From a virus: a stretch of 45,196 nt of DNA. A program made the translations under genes and the position numbers. Under the pieces are notes generated by a model. It ran no database searches. It was not told the DNA's origin and saw nothing but the letters and a program-made list of their open reading frames with translations. Positions 17,360 through 39,109 of the stretch are shown piece after piece; within the stretch, counting starts at the first letter, position 1, and each line of letters starts with the position of its first letter. The stretch covers positions 1-45,196 of the IMG/VR virus record IMGVR_UViG_3300036046_000010; one strand, given 5' to 3'.

Positions 17360-17392
17360 ATCCTTATCTTCATTAGATGAAGGGATAAGGAT
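17360..17392. terminator. Hairpin immediately after the RNA polymerase gene
   Basis: ATCCTTAT/ATAAGGAT and CTTCAT/ATGAAG form a 14-bp interrupted stem with a 3-nt loop directly after the RNAP stop. It includes the CATTAGATGAAGGG motif (17371-17384). There is no U-tract. It is AT-rich, unlike the other hairpins. It marks the boundary between replication and structural genes and may act in termination, RNA processing or as part of a phage promoter. Confidence 0.55.
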
Positions 17393-28170: not shown

Positions 28171-29443
28171 CTTCGGCTCCTGTATCTTCTGCGGTGAAGG
28201 GTATGTCCTCGTACCTGGCGCGCTGCGGGTCGTACTTCACCGTAGCTCGCGGGTCTGGGGCAGCGCCCTCTCTCCTGAGTTTGTTCTTGGGCATTCCGAT
28301 GTACCGGACTGCCGCGAGGCCGGGGTCATTGCTCGCCCCGATCATAAGCTGGAAGTCGCAGGCACCTTGCTTGCCCGTCTTGCTGTCCTTGAGCATCCCG
28401 AGCGTGGGGAATTGCAGCCCGTCGCCCTCGTTGCTGATCTGGGAGGTGGCCAGTCCGGCGTGGCCGTACTTCACGGCAAGCTCCCGTGCCCACTGATACA
28501 TCCGCTCCAGCCCGAGGTCCGTGCGGGCCGCGTCACCGAAGCCGCGCACGTTGTCGATCATGTCGTAAACGACGATGCCCGGCTGGTTCCGCTCCACGAT
28601 AGCCTCCACCGTGAAGCAGTCGGCGTTGTGGATGTCGATCACGCGGACGCGGTCGATTGCACCCATGACCTCCTCGTACAGGCCCTTGAGCCGACCGGCG
28701 GTGTTCCAGAGGATCAACTCGCTGACCTTCGCCCCGAGGGCTGCTTGGTACAGCCGGGGGATGATCCGCTTGCCCGGCCCCTCGTTGTTCAGCCACACGG
28801 CGGGCTGTCCCGGTGGAAGCTGGGCGGCGAGGTTCGTAAGCTCGCTGGCGATGAACGTGGTCTTGCCCTTGTCCGGGCGACCGGCGATGATGCCGAAGTC
28901 ACCGGGCCGGAGGCCGCGCACGCTGTCGTTGAGGCACTGCAAGCGCCACCGGAGCCCGGCGTCACTGACCTCCTCCGCGAGAAGGTCGCCGATGTCGTCC
29001 CGGATGAAGTCGATGTCCCGGATACCCGCATCGGCCTTGAACTCGTCGAGGGCCTGGCTGAGCACGCCTTGGATGTTCGGAAGATCGCCCGCGTCGAACT
29101 TAGCGAGGATCGTGGCAAGCTGCGTCCCAAGCCGAAGCTCCAGCATGGACCGCATGATCGTGTTCTTCTCGTCCTCGCCGACATCTACTGTGAGGGCATT
29201 CTTGATGATGCCCTCGTAGGCCGCGCGCTGCTCCGCCGAGAGGGACGGATGCCGGGCACGGAACACCGGGATGAAGGTAGCGTGGTCGATGCTTTGATGC
29301 TCGGGTAGCTCCGAGAAGTAGTGCTGGAAGTCGTCAAGGAGCGCGACAGTCTGCGCGTCAAGGGCCGTTGCTGGCACCCTGCCGCGCATCTTGTAGAACT
29401 CGCTGCGGTACTTGACGATCCGCAGGAGGTTCAGGTCGATCAT
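28154..29443 (-). CDS. Replicative DNA helicase (DnaB/T7 gp4 helicase type)
   Basis: 429 aa. Residues 1-150 form a helical N-terminal domain. The RecA core starts at about 165 with NDSVRGLRPGDFGIIAGRPDKGKTT (Walker A 188-196) and GIVVYDMIDNVRGFG (Walker B). GHAGLATSQISNEGDG (H4-like) and a C-terminal KNKLRREG segment follow. It unwinds the fork as a hexamer. In T7 primase and helicase are one polypeptide, but here they are separate genes with a 92-aa gene between. The start overlaps the upstream stop (TGATG) and the C-terminus overlaps the metallophosphatase start by 17 nt. Confidence 0.92.
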   Translation of the reverse strand: MIDLNLLRIVKYRSEFYKMRGRVPATALDAQTVALLDDFQHYFSELPEHQSIDHATFIPVFRARHPSLSAEQRAAYEGIIKNALTVDVGEDEKNTIMRSMLELRLGTQLATILAKFDAGDLPNIQGVLSQALDEFKADAGIRDIDFIRDDIGDLLAEEVSDAGLRWRLQCLNDSVRGLRPGDFGIIAGRPDKGKTTFIASELTNLAAQLPPGQPAVWLNNEGPGKRIIPRLYQAALGAKVSELILWNTAGRLKGLYEEVMGAIDRVRVIDIHNADCFTVEAIVERNQPGIVVYDMIDNVRGFGDAARTDLGLERMYQWARELAVKYGHAGLATSQISNEGDGLQFPTLGMLKDSKTGKQGACDFQLMIGASNDPGLAAVRYIGMPKNKLRREGAAPDPRATVKYDPQRARYEDIPFTAEDTGAEDGATD

Positions 29444-29721
29444 CAGGCAGCCAGTGCTGCCCGCATGGCACGCTCATGGCGCGGCTGGGGCTCCTCCGGG
29501 GCCGTGTTCGGGTAGAAGAACTCAAGGATGGCGCGGCGCTGCTCGTTCTGGATGTGCCGGATGACCTCGTTCAGGTCCGCAGCGTTCTCCGCCGCCACGA
29601 AGGTCTGGCCGCGAACGTGGTTGAGGTCTGCGGTGCAGTACACGATGAAGCCGTTCATGGCGGCTTCCACGCGGAGCCCGGCGTGTTCGCGAGGCTTGGC
29701 ATCAAGGGCAGGGAGTTTCAT
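29443..29721 (-). CDS. Hypothetical 92-aa protein between primase and helicase
   Basis: Begins MKLPALDAKPREHAGLRVEAA with a leader GGAACCTGAGAC just before ATG, a variant of the leader shared with three early genes. It has a beta strand (MNGFIVYCTADLNHVRGQTFVAAENAAD), an alpha segment (DLNEVIRHIQNEQRRAILEFFYP) and an acidic then Ala-rich end. No known motif. Sitting between the split primase and helicase, it may bridge or regulate them. That is inference from position only. Confidence 0.65.
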   Translation of the reverse strand: MKLPALDAKPREHAGLRVEAAMNGFIVYCTADLNHVRGQTFVAAENAADLNEVIRHIQNEQRRAILEFFYPNTAPEEPQPRHERAMRAALAA

Positions 29722-29724
29722 GTC

Positions 29725-30525
29725 TCAGGTTCCTGTGTGTTGCGCGAGGAGCCGCCGCAAATCTGCTCGGTGGAGCCGCTTCGGGTCGTCGCTTGTTCGG
29801 ATACGGGTTAGCTTCACGGGGTGCAGCGCCATACGTGCCCGGAGCTTGCTCCAGGCGGCATCGCCAGCTTTGTCCCCGTCGAACCAGCCGATCACATGCC
29901 GGGTGCCCTCGGCGATCTCCGCCGCCTGCACTGCCGTGATCGAGGTTCCCAGCACGGCTAGGGCGTTCGCCCCGGCCCGCCAGACTGCAATAGCGGAGAG
30001 GATGTCCTCGACTACCACGGTGGCCGTGTCGGCTCTGTTGGGCAGTCGATAGATGGTGTCAGCCGGACCTCCAAGCATCCGGTACTTCGGACGCTCACCA
30101 AAGACTGCCCTGCCCAAGAGGCCCTGCAATCTTCCGCGCTGGTGAATAGGGATGAGCACGCGGCGCGTATCTTCGTGCCACCGCATACCGTAGTCGTTGC
30201 TTGCCTCCTCAGGGGTCAGGCCCCCACGAAGCGCCCATACCCGCGCCTCAGGTGGCCCCTCGCTTAGGGGCACCGCCGTGTCTGGCATGGTGATCTGGGT
30301 TCTGGCGGCGAGTTGATCCTCGGCCTGCCGGGTCTTGAGTATCTCGCCGATACTCCGGGGACCGTGCGGATGGAACTCGTCGGTGCCGCACCGGAAGCAG
30401 TGCAGGCTCACGCCACCGTGCCCGTTAGAGATAAGCGCGCTCCGGTCAAACGAGCAGTGTACGGCCCTTCGTTTCGATCCTACGGGCAGTTGCCGCGCCT
30501 GTTCCTTCCACGTCATCGCTGTCAT
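29725..30525 (-). CDS. DNA primase (zinc-binding and TOPRIM domains)
   Basis: 266 aa from MTAMTWKEQARQLP (ATG 30525; ATG 30516 is also possible). An N-terminal zinc-finger-like region has HC at 23-24 and CFRCG at 43-47, one half of the usual CxxC pair being changed. The TOPRIM core follows, with VVVEDILSAIAVWRAG (catalytic Glu) and HVIGWFDGDKAGDAAW (the DxD). It makes RNA primers for the lagging strand. It is split from the helicase, unlike T7 gp4. The start lies within the end of the preceding gene (about 80 nt overlap), so the exact start is uncertain. Confidence 0.87.
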   Translation of the reverse strand: MTAMTWKEQARQLPVGSKRRAVHCSFDRSALISNGHGGVSLHCFRCGTDEFHPHGPRSIGEILKTRQAEDQLAARTQITMPDTAVPLSEGPPEARVWALRGGLTPEEASNDYGMRWHEDTRRVLIPIHQRGRLQGLLGRAVFGERPKYRMLGGPADTIYRLPNRADTATVVVEDILSAIAVWRAGANALAVLGTSITAVQAAEIAEGTRHVIGWFDGDKAGDAAWSKLRARMALHPVKLTRIRTSDDPKRLHRADLRRLLAQHTGT

Positions 30526-31059: not shown

Positions 31060-31293
31060 CTAGGCCCTGCCCCAGATGGCGGCGGCGAGTTCATCCGTCA
31101 TGGCGCGGACCATGCGGCCCTTGGTCATGTGGGTGTACTCGATGCAGTCGCGGGTGTAGCCGGGGAGGCCTTCGACGTAGGCCGTGATGGCGATCCGACC
31201 GAAGGGTTCGCTCTTGGCGATGCGGGTGCGCTGCTTGGCTGCGAGGGCACGGCGGATGCGGCGGGGAAGCCCCGCTTCGTTATGGTTCAGCAT
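31060..31293 (-). CDS. Hypothetical 77-aa basic protein
   Basis: Begins MLNHNEAGLPRRIRRALAAKQ with AGGAACC upstream, first gene after a rho-independent terminator (31327-31355). The N-terminus is strongly basic, compatible with nucleic-acid binding. The rest is mixed alpha/beta (FGRIAITAYVEGLPGYTRDCIEYTH) ending AAAIWGRA. No recognised domain. Confidence 0.62.
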   Translation of the reverse strand: MLNHNEAGLPRRIRRALAAKQRTRIAKSEPFGRIAITAYVEGLPGYTRDCIEYTHMTKGRMVRAMTDELAAAIWGRA

Positions 31294-31862: not shown

Positions 31863-32105
31863 CTAGACTGCATCTTGCAGTACCGCCAGTCCAGCGCAGC
31901 GGTTAGCCAAAGCCCGGAAAACGATAGGGAAATCAATGCCCCCGCTCCGCCCGGTTAGCCAACCTAAGTCGCTGATTTCACGCACTTGGTACAGTCCCTC
32001 CGGACCTACCAATTCTTCTTTTTTGTGCATGTTTATCAGTAACTTAGGGAATAATTGGGCTAACCTGAAATCCGGGTTAGCCAGTTTCTCTCGGGGCCGG
32101 ATCAC
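31863..32105 (-). CDS. Possible 80-aa regulator coupled to the integrase (GTG start)
   Basis: The GTG at 32105 overlaps the integrase stop as GTGA, the coupling also used at 35399. The product has a helical first part (EKLANPDFRLAQLFPKLLIN). A second part (GLYQVREISDLGWLTGRSGGIDFPIVFRAL) weakly recalls small AlpA/excisionase-type HTH proteins. An internal ATG (32030) gives a 55-aa version. The ORF contains four copies of the GGTTAGCC/GGCTAACC octamer, so the same DNA may be a protein-binding region instead. Moderately likely gene, function unproven. Confidence 0.42.
   Translation of the reverse strand: MIRPREKLANPDFRLAQLFPKLLINMHKKEELVGPEGLYQVREISDLGWLTGRSGGIDFPIVFRALANRCAGLAVLQDAV
31901..32082. 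repeat. GGTTAGCC/GGCTAACC octamer cluster next to integrase
   Basis: Four copies: 31901-31908, 31953-31960, 32058-32065 (inverted) and 32075-32082. The last two form an inverted pair 9 bp apart. More copies occur at 37771-37778, 37803-37810, 38389-38396 and 38402-38409. Outside these clusters I noticed only one (in the portal start). Candidate integrase arm-binding sites or operators. Confidence 0.7.
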
Positions 32106-33208
32106 TTCCCGGTGTCCCCGGCGAGGCGATCAAGAGCCCTGTCCGCGAGCCCCGCGCGGGTCACTTTGCTCGTGTACCGCTCGACTTCCGCCAGGGTCTT
32201 GTGCCCCGTGATGCTCATGATCTCGTGCGGCGTGGCCCCGGCCTCTGCGAGCCTTCGGGATACTGCCTTCCGCAATCCATGGCTGGAGCACTCCGGTAGC
32301 CCGGCCTTGTCGCACCAGGCACGCATGGCGTTCCCGAAGCCGTTCGAGGACCGCTGCTCCCCGTGAACCGTCTGGAGGAACGTGCCGACTTCCGGCGGGA
32401 TCAGGTCAAGCCGCCGCTGCAACTCCGGGTGGATCGGGATGTCAACCAGCACCCCGGACTGGTTCCGGGTTTTCTGCCTGCGGTACTGCAACCGCCCGTC
32501 CTTGATGTTCTCCGGCCCTAGCTGCACCACGTCCACCCGCGCTGCCCCGGTGTAGAGCATCAGGGCCATGGCGAGGTCGGCTGTGGTGCCTACCTCCCAC
32601 TTATCCTGATACTTCTTGATCTCGGCCTCGGTCCATGTGTGGAAGCCGTCCGGGTTCACGGTGTGGTACTTCTTCGCCTCCCGTGCGGGGTTGAAGTCGA
32701 TGAGGTGCATGTCGTGCTGGGCGTGGTCGAGGATCGGCCGAAGCGTCTTGAGCAAGTTGTTCGCCGCTGCGGGCGTGTCGGCCTTCTGCGCCATGAGTGC
32801 CTTTACGTCCGACAGCGACATCTTCTCCACGAGCTTGTCGCCGTGCTCCTCTCTGAGCTTCTCGGCGATGCTGCGGTGCCCCCTAACCGTAAGGGGGGCG
32901 TACCGCTTGAAGTCGGGCGACTGATACCAGCTTTCGATGACGCTGGAGAGGCTACCGTGGGGAGCCTGAGAAACGCCTCCGGTAGCCTCCCCAGCGGAGG
33001 ACAGGCGGATACCCGCAACGGCTGCGGTGTAGCGCCGGAGGAACTCCGGACTTCCGTAGACCGTGCCGAGGTTCACGACCAGCCCATCCTTCCGGTATCG
33101 CCAGCGGAGCTTGCCGTGGCGGTCGCGGTAGTGGCTAACTCCAGGAAATTCCTGGGTTAGTTTAGAGACCCCACCCTTCCGGGCGCTTGCGTTCTTTGGG
33201 CGTGGCAT
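32102..33208 (-). CDS. int: Tyrosine-family site-specific integrase
   Basis: 368 aa. N-terminal basic arm-binding region, core-binding helical domain (about 85-180), catalytic domain with every active residue: Arg224 (TGAARVDVVQL), Lys246 (RRQKTRN), His310 and Arg313 (SSHGLRKA), His336 (ITGHKTL) and nucleophile Tyr345 (EVERYTS). It would recombine attP with a host attB. Presence in a T7-like phage indicates the ability to lysogenise, as in integrase-bearing marine podoviruses. Start ATG 33208 lies inside the preceding gene (47-nt overlap). A near-palindrome lies within its 5' coding region (33135-33160). No attP is identifiable without host sequence. Confidence 0.94.
   Translation of the reverse strand: MPRPKNASARKGGVSKLTQEFPGVSHYRDRHGKLRWRYRKDGLVVNLGTVYGSPEFLRRYTAAVAGIRLSSAGEATGGVSQAPHGSLSSVIESWYQSPDFKRYAPLTVRGHRSIAEKLREEHGDKLVEKMSLSDVKALMAQKADTPAAANNLLKTLRPILDHAQHDMHLIDFNPAREAKKYHTVNPDGFHTWTEAEIKKYQDKWEVGTTADLAMALMLYTGAARVDVVQLGPENIKDGRLQYRRQKTRNQSGVLVDIPIHPELQRRLDLIPPEVGTFLQTVHGEQRSSNGFGNAMRAWCDKAGLPECSSHGLRKAVSRRLAEAGATPHEIMSITGHKTLAEVERYTSKVTRAGLADRALDRLAGDTGK
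33135..33160. promoter_or_regulatory. Near-perfect palindrome inside the 5' end of int
   Basis: CTAAC-t-CCAGGAA, a, TTCCTGG-GTTAG forms a 12-bp stem with a one-base bulge. The preceding GG makes a GGCTAACT, close to the octamer found near the integrase stop. It could be an integrase or repressor binding site or fold in the mRNA over the int start region. Confidence 0.5.
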
Positions 33209-33393: not shown

Positions 33394-34113
33394 TCAGTTC
33401 AGTCCGCCAAGCGGCGTGTCGTTCCACGACTTCGCATTGGCGATACGCCATGCTGCCAGGGTCTTGATCGGACGCCGTGCCCGCTCCCGGAGGTAGTCGA
33501 GGATTTTCCACGGGCGCTTGCACTTGTCGCCCGCCCAGAGCGTGTTAGACACGAGACCGTTCCCGAGTTCATGCTCCATGAGTTCGTACTCTTTCCACTG
33601 ATCCCACCCGCAGGCCAGTTGCTGATCGAGATACGCGGCGAGCAGCGCCCCAAGCTGGTTGTGATCCCACTCGGAGAGCCTGCCCCAGTCCTGCCAGCGA
33701 TTGCTGTAGAACGAGCAGAAGCCACTCCGGCTGGTGAACCGTTCCTTCACGATACGGTCGAACGTGTTCCGGTCAGTGGCGACCCAGAGCCGGGCGATTT
33801 CATCTCGGCTGATCTTGATGAACAGCCGGTCGGTCGTGAAGTTGTACTCGCGTGGGCTTTCCATCGTGACGAACTCGCCTCCCGTGAGGTACTCCGCGAT
33901 GAAGTTCTCCGCGTACGCCCTGGCGTACTCCAGATGGAAGTTGCCGTAGTCGGCGGTATCGCAGAAGAGGTCCATGAGGCTCTGCGGGATGTCCTCCCCG
34001 ACCTCCTCCGCGTACACGTCAGCGATGTACTCGAACTCCCTGTCCGCCTCGCCGTCGTGGATGCTGTGATAGAACCCCGCGAACGGGATAGCGACCTCGT
34101 GTGTGTATTCCAT
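33394..34113 (-). CDS. Hypothetical early protein, 239 aa
   Basis: Starts MEYTHEVAIPFAGFYHSIHD (ATG 34113) directly after the leader GGAGCCTGAGAAACTC shared with the gene at 35758-35913. The in-frame 34131 start lies within that leader. Acidic, Tyr/Phe/Trp-rich (VYAEEVGEDIPQ, SPREYNFTTDRLFIKISRDEI) with a basic C-terminus. The SPREYNFTTDR pattern recurs in phage proteins of unknown function. Acidic early proteins often bind host factors, but nothing specific can be claimed. Followed by a short GC hairpin. Confidence 0.72.
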   Translation of the reverse strand: MEYTHEVAIPFAGFYHSIHDGEADREFEYIADVYAEEVGEDIPQSLMDLFCDTADYGNFHLEYARAYAENFIAEYLTGGEFVTMESPREYNFTTDRLFIKISRDEIARLWVATDRNTFDRIVKERFTSRSGFCSFYSNRWQDWGRLSEWDHNQLGALLAAYLDQQLACGWDQWKEYELMEHELGNGLVSNTLWAGDKCKRPWKILDYLRERARRPIKTLAAWRIANAKSWNDTPLGGLN

Positions 34114-34129
34114 GAGTTTCTCAGGCTCC
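34114..34129 (-). promoter_or_regulatory. Leader repeat GGAGCCTGAGAAACTC before an early start codon
   Basis: A 16-nt element immediately before ATG, identical to 35914-35929 and to the loop of the hairpin at 38947-38987. Degenerate relatives (GGAACCTGAGA) precede the ATGs at 36833 and 29721. It contains the ribosome-binding region. Confidence 0.75.
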
Positions 34130-34193
34130 AATGTGGGCGGCTCATCAGTGCGGGTGCCCTTGTCCGCAGACCGGGGTGTCAGCCCGGTTTCGC

Positions 34194-34331
34194 CTATCCT
34201 TGGTTGCTCAGTGGTCGTCCCTCACGGTGCCACTTCTCGATTGCGTGCTGCATGAGGCCGAGGAGCCTCGCTGCGGTGTCCTGCGTTGCCGCCGGGGTGG
34301 CCATGACTTGCCCGTTGAACACAAGGATCAT
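34194..34331 (-). CDS. Hypothetical 45-aa early protein
   Basis: Found by reading the overlap: ATG 34331 overlaps the upstream stop as ATGA. The sequence MILVFNGQVMATPAATQDTA.. then a helix (RLLGLMQHAIEKWHREG) looks like a small soluble alpha/beta peptide. Tight coupling supports it. No function assignable. Confidence 0.6.
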   Translation of the reverse strand: MILVFNGQVMATPAATQDTAARLLGLMQHAIEKWHREGRPLSNQG

Positions 34332-35761: not shown

Positions 35762-35913
35762 TTACTGCACTCCTCTGTGCTGATCCACGCCTCTGCGGGA
35801 AGGTCCATGCGCTCAAGCGCGTCGTTCGTGCAGGTGATGGCGTCGGTGCCGTCGAGGTAGACCTCTGCGGTATCGCCGTTGTGCCACTCGACGTTGATGA
35901 CAAAGCTTTTCAT
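35758..35913 (-). CDS. Hypothetical 51-aa early protein
   Basis: Found by reading the region: ATG 35913 follows the shared leader GGAGCCTGAGAAACTC, and the stop overlaps the next ATG. The product MKSFVINVEWHNGDTAEVYL.. is a beta-rich acidic mini-protein. The leader/hairpin pair upstream (35936-35986) duplicates that at 36857-36909, suggesting specific control. Function unknown. Confidence 0.68.
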   Translation of the reverse strand: MKSFVINVEWHNGDTAEVYLDGTDAITCTNDALERMDLPAEAWISTEECSK

Positions 35914-35929
35914 GAGTTTCTCAGGCTCC
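35914..35929 (-). promoter_or_regulatory. Leader repeat GGAGCCTGAGAAACTC (second copy)
   Basis: Identical to 34114-34129. With the next base it matches all 17 nt of the loop at 38959-38975. Lies directly before the ATG at 35913. Confidence 0.75.
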
Positions 35930-35931
35930 GG

Positions 35932-36072
35932 TTACGTGCAGGATCGCACTGTGATGCGGCAGGAGTGCCGCATGGCGGTATGATCCTGTGGTGTAAGCGG
36001 GACCGCTCCGGGCCGGTCCCCCACCCACTGCCCGCCAGCGCCTCTCTCCGGCTGACGGCTAGGTCGTGCCAT
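35932..36072 (-). CDS. Possible 46-aa leader-region protein
   Basis: ATG 36072 has a strong GGGGAG 6 nt upstream and an open frame to TAA at 35932. The frame runs through two hairpins (a 7-bp GGGACCG/CGGTCCC stem and the paired-hairpin block 35936-35986). The composition (Arg/Gly/Pro, then Cys/Arg) is not protein-like. It may be a leader peptide or simply the transcribed leader. Confidence 0.33.
   Translation of the reverse strand: MARPSRQPERGAGGQWVGDRPGAVPLTPQDHTAMRHSCRITVRSCT
35936..35986 (-). promoter_or_regulatory. Paired-hairpin leader block, copy B
   Basis: Contains GTGC-aggatc-GCAC and ATGCGGCA-ggag-TGCCGCAT, followed by ATGATCC (plus-strand reading). Copy A lies at 36857-36909 with the same 14-mer, the same AGTGCCGCA element and ATGATCC. 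Both stand just upstream of early genes. Candidate operator or RNA control element. Confidence 0.65.
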
Positions 36073-36269: not shown

Positions 36270-36833
36270 TCAGGCCCGGACGCTGCCGCTCGCCAGCGCC
36301 GCTTCTGCGGCACGCTTGGCGCTCAGGTCGGTCAGCGCCGCCTTCACAGCGGCCAGCATCTCGGCGTCCACGTTGTCACCCTTCGCGCTGTTGACGCGCT
36401 GCCCGGCCTGCTTCAAGAGCTTGCTCAGGCTCTCGCCGAAGTTGATCGGCTTGTATGCCGCCTCAGCCTTGAACTCATACCACCGCTTCTGCATGATCGT
36501 GTCCATGGGCAAGTCAGCGCCCTTGATCGGTCCTGCCGTGAAGTGTTCCGGCACGTCTTTCGACTTCTCGACGTAGACGAAGCCGAACATCACCTCCACC
36601 CACTCCCGGATCGCGTTCAGCCGCAGCCCCTTGGGCATGGCGTCAATCAAGGCGTTAACACGCTTCACAGCAGGCCGGATGTCGCCGGTTTCTTTCCAGC
36701 GGAAGGCGATGGCGTAGAGGTGCCGGTGAATGTCCATCTGGACACTCTCTCCCCTCTTGGCGATGCTGGCCGCATCCTTGCTGAAATCGGCATCGCTCAC
36801 GAGCGTCGTGATATTCAGGGTCTTGCTGGTCAT
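36270..36833 (-). CDS. Hypothetical early protein, 187 aa
   Basis: Begins MTSKTLNITTLVSDADFSKDAASIAKRGESVQ, after leader GGAACCTGAGAGAGAACC. Helix-rich, mildly basic, soluble, with conserved-looking aromatic stretches (LYAIAFRWKETGDIRPAVKRVNALI, MQKRWYEFKAEAAYKP) and an Ala-rich end. Its size and position recall early proteins of phiKMV-like phages, but I cannot name it. A paired-hairpin leader (copy A) and a hairpin after the stop bracket it as a separate unit. Confidence 0.72.
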   Translation of the reverse strand: MTSKTLNITTLVSDADFSKDAASIAKRGESVQMDIHRHLYAIAFRWKETGDIRPAVKRVNALIDAMPKGLRLNAIREWVEVMFGFVYVEKSKDVPEHFTAGPIKGADLPMDTIMQKRWYEFKAEAAYKPINFGESLSKLLKQAGQRVNSAKGDNVDAEMLAAVKAALTDLSAKRAAEAALASGSVRA

Positions 36834-36856
36834 GGTTCTCTCTCAGGTTCCAAGCA

Positions 36857-36909
36857 GTGCAGGATCGCACATCAGTGAGGCACCGCAGTGCCGCACTAAT
36901 TCATGATCC
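36857..36909 (-). promoter_or_regulatory. Paired-hairpin leader block, copy A
   Basis: GTGC-aggatc-GCAC, then GTGAGGCAC-cgca-GTGCCGCAC (one mismatch), then ATGATCC. It shares the 14-mer GTGCAGGATCGCAC with copy B. The hairpin arms differ while pairing is kept, which points to selection on structure. Confidence 0.65.
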
Positions 36910-37182: not shown

Positions 37183-37202
37183 TTGCGTACCTTCCTCTCG
37201 CA

Positions 37203-37269
37203 GTGACGCTGTTGCGTCACGGCTCCCCTACATAAACCGGAAGCACGTTCCGGCTTATGACCGGGGAGC
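37203..37269 (-). promoter_or_regulatory. Nested inverted repeats before the first early gene
   Basis: GTGACGC-tgtt-GCGTCAC (37203-37220) lies next to a larger structure (37222-37269). Its outer stem is GCTCCCC/GGGGAGC. Its inner stem is CATAAACCGGAA/TTCCGGCTTATG (one mismatch that pairs as G-U in RNA) with a 5-nt loop. Likely a folded 5' leader or operator. Confidence 0.7.
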
Positions 37270-37770
37270 TATCTAGTGGCGTGTCCTGCTAGGCTGTCAG
37301 ATGACCAGTCAAGGAACATCATTCGCCTGTTACAGGAAGCCCGCTAGTCGCTTCCTTGTCTTTGCCCATCTGGCGCAAGACCTCATCTGGCGCGGCAGGC
37401 AAACTTGTGCAGGGACGCTCACACGCCACAACGGTTCTGCTATGCGGGCTAGTGCCCGGTCCGCTATTTAGTCGCCTTTCGGCCACCCTGCGGCTAGGTG
37501 TCGCTTCATAGTCAGGGAAATCGGTGTCAGCCGAGATTACCCTTGGTCTTGTGTCCGCTGGTAGTATTTGCACCCTATCGCGGTCCCCTTCCGGGGTAGG
37601 GCCTAGACTTGTGGCGCTAGCACCATCCTGTTTCTCGATACAGGCATCACATGGGAATGTGTAGTGCGTTCATCCCATCTTACGCCCTAGTGTCGTCTAG
37701 CTAGGTCTAGAACCGTTGTTACCTTGCGGCGGCTGGTCGTTGCCGTCTTTCGATAGCCAAGTTGTGCCAT

Positions 37771-37810
37771 GGCTAACCTAAGCTTGCAAGAACTTTTTTC
37801 GGGGTTAGCC
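37771..37810. repeat. Inverted pair of the GGCTAACC octamer
   Basis: GGCTAACC at 37771-37778 and GGTTAGCC at 37803-37810 flank an AT-rich 24-bp spacer. The adjacent CTAAG sequence resembles that beside the copy at 31953-31960. Further copies at 38389-38396 and 38402-38409. Confidence 0.65.
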
Positions 37811-37942
37811 CAACTATTTTACAACTAGTTGAAATCTAAGGAAACTTTCCATGCCTAACCTAGGTTATCCTAGAGTGTTCTAGTGCGGGTAGTGTCTTAG
37901 AGCATGGGTTATCTCGGGTGCTAGCTAGGGTATCTTCCTAGG

Positions 37943-38436
37943 TATAATCCGGGATTGGTATCCGGGCTAGGGATCAAGCTGCACGGGTATGGTCCGGGCT
38001 ACTATCCGGGCTAGGTGCCTAGGTCTTATCTAGGTTCTATCTGGGTATGATCCTCATGGGTGAAACAGATGCAGGTTTCGTGTGTTCATTAGACGAAGGG
38101 ACAAGCTAGGGTCCGGGTAGGGATGCAGTTCCGGGCCAGGATGAAAGCCAGGATGAGGGCAGGTATCAGCTAAGATCAAAGCAGGTAGCTACCCGGATCA
38201 AAGCAGACAGATGCGCCCAGAAGCACGCGAGCTCATGCAAGCCGGGTCGAACCTAGGTCCAATCCAGGTATAATCCGATTTCGGACTACATCACGCCAGA
38301 GGCACCTAGCAGCGCGTTCCCGTGTTCAGGCTAGGGCGGCCTAGGAAAGCCAGAGATACCCCTCTAGCGGGCTTCCTACGGCCTCTAGGGCTAACCTTTC
38401 GGGCTAACCCCGGGCTATCCCATTGATCCGGGCTAC
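37943..38436. repeat. CCGGGCTA-type direct repeats
   Basis: TCCGGGCTA cores at 37961, 37993, 38005 and 38428, with related forms (TCCGGGAT at 37949, TCCGGGTAG at 38112, TTCCGGGCCAG at 38129). Several are preceded by TA(T)-rich bases (TATAATCC, TATCC, TATGGTCC). The first four lie about 12-32 bp apart, like iterons or clustered operators. Confidence 0.6.
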
Positions 38437-38946
38437 ACATGGCAGGCCATACCGGGCTGCAACCGTGCGAAACAGGGGATGCTAGCCGGGTGTACGCCCG
38501 TGTGAGCCATAGCCGCGCGCGAGGGGCCTACGGGGGAAACGGCGGCGCTGGATGGGGTAGATACCCCCTCGCAAAAATATGCCGGAAATTTACGTTCACC
38601 CTGTTCTCAGACAGGGCAGAGCTCTGGTGGCCCACTCTTGTGTGGACCGCAGGCAGAACACGCATGACTACTCCATCGCCGCACTCTACGAGCGGCTTCA
38701 TGGGTTACACAACGAGCTTCCGCAGGTGTCAGCCGGGGCGGGGGTGCTCTGGTGCCGATCCCTTTATGGTTGCAGCGGGGAAGTCAAGGGATTACCTCGG
38801 GTAAATCGTGCCGGGGGAACTGCATACCCGGTATGCACGCAGTGGTTGTCGAGATTTCGCCATAAATGCGTTGACTTGGGCGAAACAATCAGGTTAGAAC
38901 ACGCAGGTCAGCCGGGACGCTGCCCGATCCGGGCGGTGCATCGGGG

Positions 38947-38987
38947 GGCCGATCCGGGGAGTTTCTCAGGCTCCGCCCGGATCGGCC
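38947..38987. promoter_or_regulatory. 12-bp perfect hairpin whose loop matches two early leaders
   Basis: Arms GGCCGATCCGGG (38947-38958) and CCCGGATCGGCC (38976-38987) enclose a 17-nt loop GAGTTTCTCAGGCTCCG. The loop is the exact complement (as plus-strand RNA) of the 16-17 nt immediately before the start codons at 35913 and 34113. A sigma-70-like plus-strand promoter (TTGACT at 38871, TAGAAC 18 bp later) lies upstream. Candidate antisense RNA, or a duplicated leader element read on the minus strand. Confidence 0.6.
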
Positions 38988-39081
38988 TTCGGCTGAGACG
39001 GCTCCGCAGCCTCGGCCTGCTTCGGATACCCCCGAGAGGCCCTGAAATAGCCCCGTCTAGGGGCCTTCCCGAGCAGAGGTA

Positions 39082-39109
39082 GGCTACCCCACCCGGAAGT
39101 GGAGTAGCC
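39082..39109 (-). terminator. Terminator-like hairpin at the end of the late genes
   Basis: GGCTACTCCAC/GTGGGGTAGCC (11 bp with one G-U on the minus strand, 6-nt loop) lies 48 bp after the last late gene. No U-tract. Likely end of the late transcript. Confidence 0.6.

Follow-up and report, generated by a model that had tools for sequence, protein, structure and literature searches.

The stretch of DNA analyzed here (the window) is a 45.2-kb IMG/VR virus record from a T7/phiKMV-like podovirus. Its minus strand encodes a single-subunit RNA polymerase, a family A DNA polymerase, a DnaB-like helicase, a primase, and a tyrosine integrase, and its best annotated relatives (Paracoccus phages ParMal1 and ParKuw1 and phage MedPE-SWcel-C56) are all Autographiviridae. 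The window phage appears to be a temperate T7-like phage of alphaproteobacteria; like LUZ100, Pasto, and HTVC019P, it belongs to the Autographiviridae and carries an integrase. The element of interest, a long hairpin referred to here as hairpin A, is located in a largely noncoding segment at 37.2 to 39.15 kb, flanked by the last late gene on one side and the first early gene (PHROG 1448) on the other. In ParMal1, ParKuw1, and MedPE-SWcel-C56, the equivalent late/early gap spans 1.2 to 1.9 kb. Within the window junction, positions 37200 to 38800 are enriched in CTAG and ACCTAGG-type words and probably hold genome ends or early promoters. A separate repeat, CCCTTC(A/G)TCTAATGAA, occurs three times on the minus strand (2255-2270, 17369-17384, and 38085-38100; 0.02 expected) and is intergenic in every case: after the RNA polymerase gene, near the end of a late gene, and before the early genes. 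These copies are candidate promoters of the phage RNA polymerase.

The original prediction described hairpin A as a perfect 12-bp stem displaying a 17-nt loop, and both elements are exact: the arms fall at 38947-38958 and 38976-38987 and enclose the loop GAGTTTCTCAGGCTCCG. When read as plus-strand RNA, the stem reaches 15 bp via two G·U pairs. The matches claimed between the loop and gene starts are likewise accurate, with 16 of the 17 loop nucleotides recurring directly before the minus-strand ATG at 34113, all 17 recurring directly before the ATG at 35913, and the related sequence GGAACCTGAGA preceding the ATGs at 29721 and 36833 (Table 1). The word GGANCCTGAGA is present in six copies in the window, where 0.11 would be expected; four of these stand right before minus-strand ATGs, and two lie within long hairpin loops. 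Hairpins of at least 10 bp with a 14-nt loop stretch that is repeated elsewhere were found at two loci, compared to none in 200 dinucleotide shuffles. As the repeats and hairpins exceed both expectation and shuffles, the observation is not due to chance. A bare 14-mer scan of IMG/VR returned essentially chance matches among the matches listed and later served as a negative control. We also considered a coding explanation for hairpin A, which is overlapped by a 167-amino-acid plus-strand open reading frame (ORF; 38579-39082). This ORF was judged to be fortuitous, since two related phages (L132 and L133, described below) have no long antisense ORF across the hairpin.

Table 1. Positions of the hairpins, leader tags, and associated genes (window coordinates unless another locus is given)
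Feature	Position	Strand	Evidence or remark
Hairpin A, 15-bp stem (12 perfect pairs, 2 G·U pairs, and 1 further pair) with anti-leader loop; core of the proposed small RNA (sRNA)	38944..38990	+	Covariation with four relatives; covariance model match of 53.5 bits
17-nt loop GAGTTTCTCAGGCTCCG, complement of early-gene leaders	38959..38975	+	Duplex energies
Sigma-70-like promoter, TTGACT (38871-38876), 18 bp, TAGAAC (38895-38900)	38871..38900	+	Best site in 200 nt; predicted transcription start about 38907
Leader tag CGGAGCCTGAGAAACTC, upstream of ATG 35913 (51-aa ORF)	35914..35930	-	
Leader tag GGAGCCTGAGAAACTC, upstream of ATG 34113 (239-aa ORF)	34114..34129	-	
Leader tag GGAACCTGAGA, upstream of ATG 36833 (first early gene)	36841..36851	-	
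Leader tag GGAACCTGAGA, upstream of ATG 29721 (92-aa ORF, primase/helicase interval)	29723..29733	-	
First early gene, PHROG 1448	36270..36833	-	L132 and L133 orthologues carry exact tag GGAGCCTGAGAACACCATG
Target gene, 239 aa	33394..34113	-	No assigned function (weak PHROG 37559)
Target gene, 51 aa	35758..35913	-	No assigned function
Target gene, 92 aa, upstream of helicase	29443..29721	-	No assigned function
Tyrosine integrase gene containing hairpin B	32102..33208	-	PF00589, 1.6e-13; PHROG integrase
Hairpin B in the integrase coding sequence, 17-bp stem (one G·U pair on the mRNA strand), loop with GTTTCTCAGGCTCC	32941..32996	-	z = -4.8
Complete T7-like prophage, Pseudorhodobacter antarcticus	L227; G010:C55:18573-61863		In tRNA-Met gene, 18-bp att core

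Several early and replication genes have the shared tag, GGAGCCTGAGA, 1 to 7 nt ahead of their ATG. In the window phage, the tag is followed by AACTC, a 3' extension that is common to the hairpin A loop and its two exact leaders and is absent in other phages. Computed duplex energies of the loop with these two leaders are -34.5 kcal/mol (35913) and -33.0 kcal/mol (34113), compared to a mean of -13.1 kcal/mol for other gene starts, and the window loop pairs with its own leaders 4 to 9 kcal/mol better than does any loop taken from another phage. The leaders at 36833 and 29721 have one mismatch each to the loop. The leaders are unstructured and contain no hairpin (folding z of about 0). Neither a search of IMG/VR with the exact window leader nor a single-protein scan with the first early gene returned any matches. 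An imperfect palindrome, GTGCGATCCTGCAC, occurs shortly before the tag in the leaders at 35913 and 36833 (minus strand, about 35931-35960 and 36852-36880, respectively) and is possibly an operator or a leader hairpin.

Terminase searches yielded four relatives (L130 to L133) with terminases of 76 to 82% amino acid identity. All four carry a hairpin at the same late/early junction, and in each the loop on the strand opposite the genes reads ...TCTCAGGCTCC. An 11-nt loop core is invariant across the window and the four relatives, and the stems share no common sequence. The stem alignment, which comprises five sequences only, nevertheless has 94.7% of its cells paired, with two-sided changes in 13 of 16 pairs; none of 500 shuffles reached any of these measures, and slid controls were 43 to 53% paired. 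The tag co-occurs with the hairpin: each of the three relatives with early-region sequence carries GGAGCCTGAGA before ATGs of early or replication genes (the L131 sequence ends before its early genes). Two GGAGCCTGAGAACACCATG leaders are found in each of L132 and L133, and the L130 record has the leader GGAGCCTGAGAACCCATG. The window, L132, and L133 all carry the tag on their first early gene; other tagged genes encode the DNA polymerase sliding clamp (L132) or are small genes with no assigned function, and tagged genes adjoin the primase gene in both the L130 record and the window. In addition, 5'-untranslated-region (UTR) hairpins with loops showing TGAGCCTGAGAAC are present twice in L132 and once in L133. 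Co-conservation of loop and leader had been named beforehand as the test on which the original prediction could fail, and this co-conservation is what the relatives display.

The system is confined to this group of phages. A covariance model built from the five sequences gave no significant match when run against the other 65 sources, most of them more distant relatives, and among 397 genomes of the host's family it matched one, through the P. antarcticus prophage already represented by L132. The 10-mer TCTCAGGCTC occurs 244 times in all fetched loci, with stems of at least 8 bp only in this phage group. More distant relatives, including Paracoccus phages and MedPE-SWcel-C56, possess the first early gene but have neither hairpin nor tag, and a generic search for loop-leader complementarity in distant relatives gave only noise. 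The system is therefore clade restricted and dispensable for T7-like growth. Within the clade, hairpin A is almost certainly a conserved functional element.

For the strand on which hairpin A acts, the original prediction favored a plus-strand antisense RNA and offered an extra copy of a minus-strand leader element as the alternative. Runs of T (U-tracts in RNA) follow the hairpin on the antisense strand in three of the five sequences (L130, L132, and L133, but not the window or L131 copies) and are absent on the other strand. The antisense-strand fold is the more stable one in four of five sequences. All nine G·U cells in the alignment are G·U on the antisense strand and A·C on the other; seven of these are in the outer stem beside the U-tract, and the wobble and U-tract signals are therefore partly one signal. 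The cleanest case is L131, in which a 15-bp stem on the antisense strand contrasts with 6 bp on the mRNA strand. U-tracts, wobble cells, and folding energies thus favor the plus strand, and we hold with good confidence that the active RNA is the antisense strand of hairpin A; its transcript and effect are what we infer.

A minus-strand function is unlikely by comparison with these signals. In this view, a translational regulator of phage or host origin would bind RNA at GGAGCCUGAGA, which is exposed without a hairpin in the leaders and displayed in hairpin loops in 5' UTRs and after late genes, with hairpin A serving as an extra copy, a high-affinity site, or a decoy. One core is indeed common to leaders and loops, every copy of the tag in the prophage has the mRNA-strand orientation, and the 5'-UTR hairpins of L132 and L133 show the tag on that strand as well. 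However, the strand signals of hairpin A, including the short mRNA-strand stem of L131, favor the opposite strand; the leaders lack a hairpin; and a second hairpin, within the integrase mRNA, displays the complement rather than the tag. Recognition of the CsrA/Rsm type also requires GGA, which the UTR-hairpin loops (TGAG) do not contain.

A sigma-70-like promoter had likewise been proposed upstream of hairpin A. The site is present where it was placed, 46 nt before the stem, and outscores 95.5% of shuffled versions of its own 200-nt upstream region (P = 0.045), which makes it individually plausible but no more, as P values in the other four phages range from 0.35 to 0.43. L132 has TTGACC-17-TAGATA at a similar distance from its hairpin; the sites in L130, L131, and L133 are not convincing. 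Because the promoter is good in the window and not significant elsewhere, the transcription start is the weakest link in the reconstruction.

We propose that host RNA polymerase would transcribe an sRNA of about 85 nt from the plus strand of the noncoding late/early junction, with hairpin A as its 3' hairpin. The large loop, a perfect complement of the dedicated ribosome-binding tag on several early and replication genes, would pair in trans with the unstructured leaders and occlude the Shine-Dalgarno sequence and start codon. The tagged genes would then be translated less together, as one posttranscriptional regulon. The 5'-UTR hairpins of L132 and L133, with the tag in their loops, would suit loop-loop kissing. 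The same loop is found on wholly different stems in four related phages, one of which is integrated in a chromosome, and is therefore very probably part of a real switch that lowers these genes. That the RNA acts specifically as a trans-acting antisense translational repressor of the tagged phage regulon is, in our assessment, likely.

The integrase gene contains a second hairpin with the same loop (hairpin B), which the original prediction had missed. Its loop has the same 14-nt stretch as hairpin A, in the polarity of the sRNA loop, on an unrelated stem; the covariance model for hairpin A retrieved hairpin B at E = 4.4e-7, outside the training set. In L132, whose integrase is 55% identical, CTCAGGCTCC occupies the equivalent site of the gene but in a different codon phase; the surrounding segment can fold, and on the mRNA strand its pairs include wobbles. 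With few sequences to compare (two), this pattern is what selection on RNA, rather than on protein, would give. The integrase mRNA may be a second source of the anti-tag loop. It could instead belong to an RNA timing circuit, in which the antisense RNA is mainly a titration target or an activator and is sequestered or mimicked by late-strand read-through RNA or by the integrase mRNA loop. Sense transcription through hairpin A would yield a perfect anti-antisense loop, and the recurrence of the integrase anti-tag in the window and L132 in different codon phases would fit such a circuit. We nonetheless find it quite improbable, as the pairing spans the Shine-Dalgarno sequence and reaches the ATG, which is the classic geometry of repression, and no upstream inhibitory structure was seen for pairing to open.

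A DNA-level element (i.e., a cruciform or protein-binding palindrome at a genome end with a role in packaging, replication, or recombination, and only secondary similarity to the leaders) would suit a junction that probably holds genome ends and has very stable hairpins, but is highly improbable given that conservation falls on the loop, which exactly matches the start-codon tags of several genes, that the stems vary freely, that G·U pairs and U-tracts are features of RNA, and that one copy is inside the integrase gene.

Phage antisense RNAs directed against ribosome-binding sites are already known, C4 and Sar being examples. The C4 antisense RNA of phages P1 and P7 and the C4-like RNAs of prophages base-pair through their loops with a ribosome-binding region and favor lysogeny (PMC5320573, PMC8546580). 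The window loop is similarly complementary to the ribosome-binding site of its targets. However, C4 folds into three stems bearing a' and b' loops and is released by RNase P from a longer precursor, whereas the conserved part in the window is a single long hairpin that is encoded opposite the genes and has one loop for at least two to four targets. The Rfam C4 covariance model gave no match in the window region, where only a type II hammerhead was found. The Sar RNA of P22 and the OOP and aQ RNAs of lambda are phage antisense RNAs that act on the translation or stability of lytic and lysogenic regulators (PMC12197685). These RNAs are cis-encoded opposite one target gene, whereas the window RNA is proposed to act in trans on scattered tagged leaders. 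A bacterial chromosomal sRNA, RepG, binds through its terminator loop; in the window, by contrast, the phage supplies both the loop and the matching tag on several of its own genes. RepG of Helicobacter pylori controls expression via an mRNA leader (PMC8295292). In the temperate T7-like phage LUZ100, antisense RNA has been seen and is located in structural genes (PMC10134795). The open-licence literature searched contained no description of a single-hairpin RNA that reads a dedicated tag of scattered genes in a T7-like phage.

The L132 phage is integrated in the Pseudorhodobacter antarcticus genome (strain CGMCC 1.10836), where its hairpin A lies at about 26.1 kb of NZ_FOCO01000020.1, and on either side of it is an 18-bp copy of the tRNA-Met gene 3' end (C55:18573 and C55:61846). 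It is thus a T7-like prophage of about 43 kb that retains the whole hairpin/tag system, and as a real prophage with an att-like tRNA-Met repeat, it indicates that the element is kept in a temperate phage. Integration beside the integrase gene splits the early promoter region of this prophage from its replication and RNA polymerase genes. How integrase-bearing T7-like phages keep their lytic genes silent is a question for which MarR-type proteins have been proposed, specifically for LUZ100-like phages (PMC10134795). In the early genes tested for the present phages, no repressor or MarR-like protein was recognized. A role in lysogeny is attractive because the prophage keeps the entire system and because no such protein was recognized among those genes; with less certainty than for repression itself, the likeliest role would be the restraint of lytic early genes in lysogeny or early infection. 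If true, control of a tagged regulon by one compact RNA would add a new principle of regulation to the T7-like family and would provide a ready-made tag/anti-tag pair for synthetic regulation.

A parallel exists in the start-associated sequences (SAS) of cluster K mycobacteriophages. As with SAS, a repeated and strongly conserved tag is found at the ribosome-binding site of early genes, here 1 to 7 nt before the ATG. The SAS consensus (GGGATAGGAGCCC) differs from the window tag, and the phage family is another. Upstream 17-bp inverted repeats (ESAS) accompany about half of the SAS sites. In the window, the palindrome noted above was seen in two leaders. The role of SAS was still termed unknown in a 2024 study (PMC11373665), and K1 phages have one lone reverse SAS copy that was given no explanation by Pope et al. 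(PMC3203893). In Anaya (L324, 29871-29883) and CrimD (L325, 28836-28848), this reverse copy forms part of the loop of a stable gene-strand hairpin; the loop would show CCUCCUAUCC, the complement of the SAS tag. Shaobing and Enkosi share the hairpin, with stem changes that preserve pairing. In Ekdilam and Krueger, the SAS is the same but the hairpin loop is not complementary to it, the corresponding hairpin in Ekdilam, Krueger, and Cain bearing other pyrimidine-rich loops. Most K subgroups tested keep SAS and lack the complementary loop, and AnnaSerena (cluster EF) has no such hairpin. Given the Ekdilam and Krueger loops and the lack of a hairpin in AnnaSerena, independent reinvention is a lead, not a result. 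The broadest reading, in which one antisense RNA rather than a repressor protein is the main brake of the T7-like lineage, the integrase mRNA shares the anti-tag, and the K1 SAS system arose independently by the same logic, is doubtful.

The hammerhead noted above, a type II ribozyme at 34132-34195 on the minus strand (Rfam RF02276), scores 41.8 bits, which exceeds the gathering threshold, and immediately precedes the tagged leader of the gene at 34113. Predicted self-cleavage would trim the 5' UTR of this gene to a short stretch near the tag. Type II hammerheads have been reported near ardA, marR, and integrase genes in an Agrobacterium prophage region (PMC3088659). A further minus-strand repeat, CCGGCTGACACC, recurs with zero or one mismatch at 30055, 31309, 34175, 37523, and 38725. 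Its use as a second pairing site for the 5' part of the sRNA was rejected, having found no support in relatives. One copy lies within the hammerhead, and another is 15 nt upstream of the ATG of the gene at 31293.
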